From positions 1 through 64,000 of the forward strand of contig NZ_FYDJ01000006.1 in assembly GCF_900187425.1 (NCBI RefSeq): a stretch of 64,000 nt of DNA. Direction: 5' to 3'. The notes under the pieces are model-generated. The model was not told where the DNA came from and ran no database searches. It was given only the letters and a program-made list of their open reading frames with translations. The translations under genes were made by a program, and so were the position numbers. The stretch comes from Pseudomonas sp. Irchel s3h14 (GTDB lineage: Bacteria; Pseudomonadota; Gammaproteobacteria; Pseudomonadales; Pseudomonadaceae). Of the stretch, positions 12,679-35,138 are shown one piece after another. How positions within the stretch are numbered: position 1 is the first letter of the stretch; each line of letters begins with the position of its first letter.

Positions 12679-12710
12679 AAAAAAAACCGGCTGATAAGGC
12701 CGGGTTTTTC
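12679..12710. terminator. Bidirectional intrinsic terminator
   Basis: CCGGC and GCCGG pair around a short loop. A T run follows on the plus strand and an A run precedes, so it can end both the DUF1615 transcript and the convergent repeat-protein transcript. Confidence 0.75.
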
Positions 12711-12737: not shown

Positions 12738-13139
12738 TTATACAGCGCGGCTTTCGATCAGGCGGTCCGAACCACCTTCAGCAACGCGGTTCTCGATCAA
12801 ACGATCCGAACCACCTTCGGCGACGCGGTTCTCGATCAGACGATCCGAACCACCTTCAGCCACGCGGTTTTCGATCAGACGATCCGAGCCGCCTTCGGCA
12901 ACGCGGTTCTCGATCAGACGATCCGAACCACCTTCAGCGACGCGGTTCTCGATCAGACGATCCGAACCACCTTCAGCAACGCGGTTTTCGATCAGACGAT
13001 CCGAACCACCTTCAGCCACGCGATTTTCAATCAGACGATCCGAGCCGCCTTCAGCGACAACCGGGTGAGCAGAGGTAGCGGCGAAAGCGTTAACTGCAAA
13101 AACCGAGAAAGCGATGCTGAGGATGGTTTGGCGTTTCAT
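12738..13139 (-). CDS. Secreted protein of eight identical 13-residue repeats
   Basis: The 133-residue protein has a clear signal peptide (MKRQTILSIAFSVFAVNAFA, cleavage probably after Ala20), a seven-residue linker, then eight tandem copies of VAEGGSDRLIENR, the last one ending ESR. Nothing else is encoded. The copies are identical in protein up to that last unit but differ at silent sites; the valine codon changes between neighbouring units, so the peptide is under selection. Each unit ends in Arg, so trypsin-like cleavage would release 13-mers. The start at 13139 was chosen because it begins the signal peptide. Similar Pseudomonas proteins carry automatic labels such as phage infection protein, as I recall, without known support. 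The function is unknown. Confidence 0.85.
   Translation of the reverse strand: MKRQTILSIAFSVFAVNAFAATSAHPVVAEGGSDRLIENRVAEGGSDRLIENRVAEGGSDRLIENRVAEGGSDRLIENRVAEGGSDRLIENRVAEGGSDRLIENRVAEGGSDRLIENRVAEGGSDRLIESRAV
12747..13058 (-). repeat. Eight 39-bp tandem repeats inside a coding region
   Basis: Eight in-frame units of 39 bases fill all but the ends of the secreted repeat protein. Units differ mostly at third codon positions. The array could vary in copy number by slippage or recombination without breaking the frame. Confidence 0.95.
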
Positions 13140-13292
13140 GATGGTGTGCTCCGGGGTGTAGTTGTTGGGTCTGGAGCTGATGTTACGCCGCGGATTTTTT
13201 ATGAGAACTTCATTGCCGTGATGGTGAACATCGACGGCAATGATAGGAAGGACGACGCACCCCACGCGAGCATGATGGTTCAGTTCAACGAC

Positions 13293-14087
13293 TCACGTGC
13301 GACGGCGAACAAACTTGCGCCACAACCAGACCCACAGCATGAACAGCGGGAAGGCCAGAATCAGGAAGGGCAGGGCATAGCTGACTTTTTCCAGCGCATC
13401 GGCGGCGCCATCGGCCAGGTTGTCCAGTAAATTGCTGAACGCTTGACTCAGGTGCGACGAGCGACTGCTGGCGCCGGTCGGCAGAAACGACAGCGTGACC
13501 CGATTGGTGTCCAGTCGGCGCTGGTGTCCGGCGGCGATTTGGGCCAGGGCTTGCAGGTCGTTTTCGATCCCGGCCTGTTCCTTGCTCAAGGTGATCAGAT
13601 CCGTAACGCTGATGTCTTTGCGGGTCGCCAACTCATCCAGACGTTGCTGCTGAGCCTTGAGCCGCTCTTGACGCCGACGAGTGTCGTCCACAGCATCGGC
13701 CAGGTCTTCGGCACTGGTGATCCGTTGACCCAGTTCTCCACCCTCGGCCGCCATCGTGACCAGCGGCTCGACGCCAGCGGGGGCAATGCGCAAAGTGATC
13801 TCGGCGCGGCCGGCGCCTTGCTCGATACGCAGAACGTTACAGGCCCCGAAGCGGGCGGTTTCGCAGGCCTCGCGTGTGGCCTGCAAGCGCGGCCCGATTT
13901 GCGCCTGGGGCAGCAACAGTTGCAGTTCGTGCTCATAGGCGAGCATGGCGCCACCGCGCCCTTGTTCACCGGCTAGACTGGCCGAAGACGAGTGTTCGCT
14001 CGGCGAGCAGCCACTCAGGGCCAGGCCAGCCAGAAGAAACCCATAGAGGCGAAGAAACGGGGCGAGACCGCCATCCTGTTGGCGCAT
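13293..14087 (-). CDS. DUF4349 family lipoprotein
   Basis: The 264-residue protein has a lipoprotein signal peptide with lipobox ALSGC (Cys27), an extracytoplasmic domain with a coiled-coil stretch (DDTRRRQERLKAQQQRLDEL, about residues 134-153), and one C-terminal transmembrane helix (LPFLILAFPLFMLWVWLW) followed by Arg/Lys. This order matches DUF4349 proteins, whose function is unknown. AAGGAA lies six bases before the ATG. It reads towards the repeat-protein gene, 153 bases away. Confidence 0.8.
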   Translation of the reverse strand: MRQQDGGLAPFLRLYGFLLAGLALSGCSPSEHSSSASLAGEQGRGGAMLAYEHELQLLLPQAQIGPRLQATREACETARFGACNVLRIEQGAGRAEITLRIAPAGVEPLVTMAAEGGELGQRITSAEDLADAVDDTRRRQERLKAQQQRLDELATRKDISVTDLITLSKEQAGIENDLQALAQIAAGHQRRLDTNRVTLSFLPTGASSRSSHLSQAFSNLLDNLADGAADALEKVSYALPFLILAFPLFMLWVWLWRKFVRRRT

Positions 14088-34766: not shown

Positions 34767-35138
34767 TTACCAGCGGCCATAGCCGCGGGGAGGGCCGTAG
34801 TAACCGCGCGGTGGACCGTAATAACCACGTGGCGGGCCGTAGTAAACCGGCGGTGGGCCGTAATAGACCGGTTGTTGCACGTAGACCGGTGCCGGCTGGT
34901 AATAAACCGGGGGCGGGCCGTAGTAAACCGGTTGTGGTTGAGCGTAAACCGGTTGCTGTACATAGATCGGCCGGTTGCTATTGATGATGGCCGAACCGAC
35001 GATGGCCGAGCCAACGATCGCACCAAATACCGCCGGCCCTTCCCAACCGTGACCGCCGTGACCGCCGCCAGCTTCTGCCTGCCCTGCGATAGCAAGAGCA
35101 CCGATCAGCAAGGCTACTGTGGGGATTTTACGGATCAT
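34767..35138 (-). CDS. Exported Tyr/Pro/Gly-rich repeat protein
   Basis: The 123-residue protein has a signal peptide (MIRKIPTVALLIGALAIAGQAEA), a Gly/His stretch (GGGHGGHGW), a glycine-zipper-like segment (AIVGSAIVGSAI), then repeats of YVQQPVY, VYYGPP and three RGYYGPP-like units. Such composition suggests an envelope or surface-exposed protein of low structure; the function is unknown. A terminator follows. Confidence 0.8.
   Translation of the reverse strand: MIRKIPTVALLIGALAIAGQAEAGGGHGGHGWEGPAVFGAIVGSAIVGSAIINSNRPIYVQQPVYAQPQPVYYGPPPVYYQPAPVYVQQPVYYGPPPVYYGPPRGYYGPPRGYYGPPRGYGRW

Follow-up and report, generated by a model that had tools for sequence, protein, structure and literature searches.

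A protein of the kind studied here has already been noticed in P. aeruginosa as PA4881. PMC3557286 describes PA4881 as a tandem-repeat protein, not yet characterised, that is controlled by MexT, a redox-responsive LysR regulator. The same paper reports that it is also bound by the LysR protein PA2206, and that disc tests revealed no increased sensitivity to H2O2 in a PA4881 mutant. PA4881 also tops a list of MexT-dependent genes, with a log2 change of -6.5 in a mexT deletion (PMC12607905), and is much reduced in parS and parR mutants (PMC3848899). Together with several other hypothetical proteins, it ranks with the strongest targets of activation by MexT, which is also the regulator of the multidrug pump MexEF-OprN. 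Another small protein to be considered is PtrA, which is periplasmic and induced by copper and zinc (PMC8872213, PMC8531726).

Here we analysed a window of 64,000 nucleotides from Pseudomonas sp. Irchel s3h14, which contains a gene for an exported protein made of short tandem repeats. As read from sequence, this gene probably encodes a soluble, Sec-exported member of the stress regulon of MexT, or of a MexT-like LysR protein, and is of the PA4881 kind. What we add is how widespread the family is, that its units evolve in concert, and a conserved nod box that would place it in a MexT-type stress response. A preliminary description of the locus knew of no described function; this still holds for the function, but the family itself is not undescribed, as PA4881 is a MexT-controlled tandem-repeat protein (PMC3557286).

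A predicted exported chain of eight units

The preliminary description had given the coordinates of the gene correctly. The gene lies on the minus strand (Table 1), and the eight identical 13-residue units that it reported are indeed present, with N12S in the last unit, which ends in IESR, as the only deviation. Tandem Repeats Finder (TRF) gave a period of 39 bp, 7.9 copies and a score of 480; chance does not produce eight 13-mers so alike and all in frame. The array is followed by AV at the C-terminus, and at the other end the signal-peptide pattern MKRQ..FA is strongly conserved in the alignment of relatives. The mature chain has 113 residues, 16 of them Arg (two in each unit), and contains no Cys, Met, Lys or aromatic residues; the unit also has no His. 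Our best reading is a soluble, Sec-exported protein.

Table 1. Coordinates of the repeat gene, its control signals and candidate regulators
Feature	Position	Strand	Basis
133-aa exported tandem-repeat protein gene	12738..13139	-	ORF and sequence reading
Signal peptide, residues 1-20, MKRQTILSIAFSVFAVNAFA, Sec type	13080..13139	-	sequence reading; cleavage likely after AFA (inferred)
Linker ATSAHPV, residues 21-27	13059..13079	-	sequence reading
Eight 39-bp / 13-aa units VAEGGSDRLIENR, the last VAEGGSDRLIESR	12747..13058	-	sequence reading, repeat search
Shine-Dalgarno-like GGAG, 9 bases before ATG	13149..13152	-	sequence; conserved in relatives
Likely -10 element TAACAT	13180..13185	-	inferred; conserved GGCGTAACATC in promoters; not called as -10 by sigma-70 scan
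Likely weak -35 element GTTCTC, 17-bp spacer, within ATGAAGTTCTC	13203..13208	-	inferred; ATGAAGTTCTC in 87 promoters
LysR/MexT-type nod box ATCATTGCCGTCGATGTTCACCAT (ATCA-N7-CGAT-N4-ACCAT)	13221..13244	-	promoter alignment, motif counts, published consensus
Terminator-like hairpin, T-run on both strands, between repeat gene and convergent DUF1615 gene	12687..12703	.	terminator/promoter scan
MexT-like LysR regulators in own genome	C20:15579-16490, C26:92682-93584, C46:44652-45557, C28:246217-247116		85, 70, 67 and 62% identical to relative's MexT

Hydrophilins, or LEA-like proteins, are defined by more than 6% Gly and a GRAVY below about -1; the chain has 14% Gly but a GRAVY of -0.64, and we rejected this assignment. 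Structure prediction gave no usable fold for the window protein with 19 relatives (AlphaFold, pLDDT 36). A 21-unit relative folded alone yielded an all-beta model at 84.7, with its five models ranging from 84.7 to 25 and PDB matches at TM <=0.42 and rmsd >13. The five models disagreed, and as AlphaFold2 is known to return confident beta models spuriously when given perfect repeats, we gave the 21-unit model no weight.

The repeat gene sits between hemB-DUF1615 on one side, the DUF1615 gene being convergent, and a DUF4349 gene (13293-14087) on the other. The latter, on the same strand, ends about 150 bp before the repeat gene, and the conserved promoter is located in this gap. The immediate neighbours are DUF1615, DUF4349, GST-like and CBS-domain-like genes, the last two named from sequence reading. 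Separately, an exported-looking protein of 123 residues with YYGPPRG-type tandem repeats is encoded elsewhere in the window (34767-35138, minus strand).

Family breadth and selection on the unit

By scanning one genome per species, we identified 268 loci related to the repeat gene; the 80 top-ranking ones among them all belong to Pseudomonas. A second search, in 198 Pseudomonadaceae genomes, found relatives in 85 of them and in 8 of the 19 genera sampled, often as several paralogues and sometimes many per genome, which shows that such repeat proteins are not peculiar to P. aeruginosa. The own genome holds a near-copy with 7 units (C31:332770), a paralogue with 14-aa units and the same MKRQ start as the window gene (C32:140941, E 2.7e-13), a two-unit protein (C6:10890) and a weaker relative (C24:101273). 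Around C6:10507 (L144, ~297-1826) lie the genes of two small proteins with signal peptides, separated by about 1 kb and ending in a common tail, VAENRxEFGSKYQRY; one carries two AEGGxDR-type units and the other a strict nod-box match upstream. In distant relatives the units are 13-aa IAEGGSDRTGANR, 15-aa VAEGGADRLIEQSGR, 17-aa VAENGSSQTVDRLHKQL-like or 22-aa VADNGSERTIDRLHKQMDDAR-like. The exact 13-mer is therefore not the invariant; what the family keeps is an exported protein built as a chain of A[ED]xGS-type units.

Among the eight window units, 10 of 13 codon positions vary, nearly always silently, and the valine codons run GTC, GTG, GTT, GTC, GTT, GTG, GTC, GTT. Mean pairwise pS is 0.376 and pN 0.009, confirming the silent-site differences for which the preliminary description had considered purifying selection on the peptide the simplest reading. 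It had proposed comparing silent and non-silent change and copy number in homologues, and named random amino-acid change between repeats as a result that would refute its reading. We looked for such change in 87 relatives and did not find it: mean pS is 0.42 and mean pN 0.054, pN exceeds pS in none of the 87, and copy number ranges from 4 to 21 (7-12 at the 30 loci sharing the DUF1615 neighbour). Comparing 775 units, we observed that A2, G5, D7, L9 and R13 are nearly invariant (R13 in 770) and that the variation seen at positions 8, 10, 11 and 12 is conservative.

Units in the interior of an array are homogenised gene by gene: identity is 91% for units of one gene vs 79% between genes, which indicates concerted evolution with purifying selection. 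The few changes between units are conservative and lineage-specific, each lineage having its own interior variant (VAADGSDRLIENR, VAEGGSDKLLQNR, VAEGGSDRLLERR). The preliminary description was thus correct about selection, and copy number is loose. This looseness and the concerted evolution would also suit arrays that grow mainly by replication slippage or recombination, with repeats that do little and any length tolerated. However, silent change is plentiful where amino-acid change is rare, and promoter and signal peptide are conserved, so we regard an idle array as improbable.

The retention of R13, together with KR or RR unit ends in several lineages, could also suggest a repeat-precursor peptide, cut by proteases after each Arg to free 13-mers as signals or antimicrobials. 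This idea, raised in the preliminary description, did not fare well. First, the commonest unit ends are NR and SR, so there is no fixed dibasic site, and an Arg-specific enzyme would also cut at R8 inside the unit. Second, the Arg end is kept only within the subfamily, and relatives under the same nod box switch to 14-, 15-, 17- and 22-aa units with other ends. Third, we found no maturation, protease or export gene, and no RiPP maturation enzyme, among the immediate neighbours. Overall, release of free 13-mers appears very unlikely. A search of the literature found no report on the 13-mer peptide itself.

The second function that had been proposed, a decoy or ligand for phage or a surface factor, would fit an exported protein of variable copy number. 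The label "phage infection protein" has been given to certain Pseudomonas proteins (PMC5557065, PMC8490769), and it may denote the repeat family, but we could not tie it to the window sequence. Nevertheless, we obtained 0 matches in 50,697 phage records and no PADLOC model above chance; change is not diversifying, as pN lies well under pS in each of the 87 genes, and the promoter is of a stress type. The proposal thus gained no positive support, and we consider it extremely improbable.

A conserved nod box and its candidate regulators

The MexT nod-box consensus is quoted as ATYA(N7)YGAT or ATCA(N7)CGAT (PMC11432991 for P. poae, PMC11144800 for P. taiwanensis). Relatives show strong conservation over the 130 bp 5' of the ATG (..AT..NNgNCNTCGATNNTCACCATCANNNCAATGAAGTTCTC.TAAAAA....GGCGTAACATC..). 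In the window the upstream half of this stretch is ATCATTGCCGTCGATGTTCACCAT, which fits the MexT consensus, and a nod box stands about 105 bp 5' of the ATG in nearly every relative, including those with 14-, 15-, 17- and 22-aa units; in distant relatives the 15-mer box lies at about -102 to -114 despite the other unit lengths. ATC-N9-GAT is a general LysR pattern. The MexT literature also has a longer form of the box, ATCA(N5)GTCGAT(N4)ACYAT, which served as the expectation before the motif test. The pattern AT[CT][AG]-N7-[CT]GAT-N4-AC[CT]AT was matched by 82 of 88 repeat-gene promoters, 44 with strict ATYA and nearly half of the promoters having ATYG at the first half-site instead. As a 24-mer, it occurred 79 times in repeat-gene promoters, while 869 kb strand-bases of flanking sequence did not contain it once. 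A search of the whole own genome gave only seven strict matches, against zero with the reversed control. Two of the seven stand at repeat genes, namely the window gene and the C32 paralogue; the others are at a small secreted protein (C6:12007), an Ndh-like gene on C34 and three more.

The C34 match (L146, C34:227671-227694) lies upstream of the Ndh-like NADH dehydrogenase gene, which is divergent from an Rrf2-type regulator, and an exact match (L142, C23:79001-79024) precedes a short ORF, MIIHLLTCLALTAVTLSVFSWYVLSEERTS. Among relatives from another genus, L217, L219 and L221 keep the nod box with IAEGGSDRTGANR as unit, and some genomes of that genus have up to ten nod-box matches; in the other-genus relative L225 the box is absent.

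Is a suitable regulator present? In the genome of a relative from another genus, the LysR gene adjoining mexEF matches the PDB entry 6l33 "MexT protein" domain (E 9e-135); the own genome has an orthologue of it on C20 and three further MexT-like LysR proteins (Table 1). It also encodes MexE (NF045904 equivalog, 753 bits vs a cut-off of 714), with two ATYA-N7-YGAT boxes upstream of the gene. With a MexT orthologue and boxes at mexE in the genome, MexT or one of its close paralogues is the likely activator of the repeat gene, although one of the three further MexT-like proteins may read the nod box. Also counting against the MexT reading are the general LysR character of ATC-N9-GAT, the ATYG half-sites and the lack of an H2O2 phenotype in the PA4881 mutant.

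Taking these observations together, we infer the following course of events. Electrophile, disulfide or nitrosative stress would activate a MexT-type LysR protein, which would bind the nod box and switch on the promoter just downstream, thereby inducing the repeat gene. The exported protein would shed its signal peptide, leaving a chain of eight interchangeable units in the periplasm or the medium. Array length could vary freely, with unequal recombination and purifying selection keeping the units alike. Loose length and alike units suggest that the function resides in the short unit A-x-x-G-S-D-R-L-x-x-x-R, its repetition serving dose or avidity. Most likely, the chain would protect or bind something in the envelope under stress. 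One specific version, which we consider a long shot, is a sacrificial sink: the Arg-rich chain, induced by MexT, would trap electrophiles of the dicarbonyl type in the envelope, and MexEF-OprN would meanwhile expel others. If true, copy number would set its capacity, and cells would have a stress defence of a new kind.

Comparison with PtrA, other repeat proteins and PA4881

The window protein as a whole scores 76 bits against the PtrA model NF041599 (cut-off 31), and PtrA relatives start with AEGGGDR after the signal peptide. It might then be of the PtrA type, serving periplasmic copper/zinc tolerance or metal storage, each unit being the PtrA N-terminal AEGGxDR motif. Yet the score climbs with copies (70, 76 and 152 for 7, 8 and 21 units), meaning that the hit is inflated by repeats, and signal peptide plus one unit reach only 20.7 bits; on this single-unit score we rejected membership. 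Furthermore, no copper gene lies nearby (neighbours DUF1615, DUF4349, GST-like, hemB), unlike ptrA-PA2807 next to copRS, the unit lacks His, Cys and Met, and the PtrA pair of the own genome has no nod box. That pair (L102, C31:213211-213614) consists of two adjacent PtrA-like genes, each with AEGGGDR after the signal peptide. A PtrA-type role is thus unlikely, although the seven-residue motif itself is genuinely shared with PtrA-like proteins. PtrA (PA2808), like the window protein, is a small exported Pseudomonas protein with AEGGxDR, but it carries the motif once, at the mature N-terminus, instead of eight tandem copies with a nod box and no copper context.

A Pfam search of the window protein matched no family, and we rejected hits to TIGR03620 and FabG, whose scores fall well short of the cut-off and grow with the number of units. 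GGSDRLI of the unit loosely resembles part of the RTX nonapeptide repeat (GGxGxDxLx), but with a 13-residue period and no GxG we rejected RTX membership. Multi-core RiPP and pheromone precursors likewise combine a leader with identical short repeats; the window protein differs from multi-core RiPP precursors by its Sec signal peptide, the lack of adjacent maturation genes and a unit length that is not kept in the family.

The favoured reading, a MexT-type stress protein, rests in part on the comparison with PA4881. The C32 paralogue is flanked by an AsmA-like gene and a DesT gene (3lsj, E 2e-99); in PAO1, DesT lies near PA4881, as PA4890. In the genome of another relative (G172), the gene after the orthologue of PA4880 (8w1d, the PA4880 product, E 2e-95) encodes a repeat protein (L230) with 17-aa VAENGSSQTVDRLHKQLG units, has nod boxes at -176 and -110, and matches the repeat family weakly (E 2.7e-5); the AsmA-like neighbour is common to both neighbourhoods. 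By position, the C32 and G172 genes would correspond to PA4881; the window gene would be a paralogue that has its start and control site in common with them. With a family this widespread and a nod box better conserved than the repeat protein, the question of function should be approachable in harmless soil strains.

Like PA4881, the window gene encodes an exported tandem-repeat protein, with a signal peptide followed by short repeats, a comparison drawn from gene position and the published description. The window gene has a MexT/LysR nod box in its promoter and MexT in its genome, and the PA4881-syntenic genes of relatives carry a LysR nod box about 110 bp upstream, as it does. It differs by its 13-aa unit, VAEGGSDRLIENR, from the 17-aa VAENGSSQTVDRLHKQLG-like one next to the PA4880 orthologue, and by its site, hemB-DUF1615 / DUF4349, from the PA4881-like neighbourhood.
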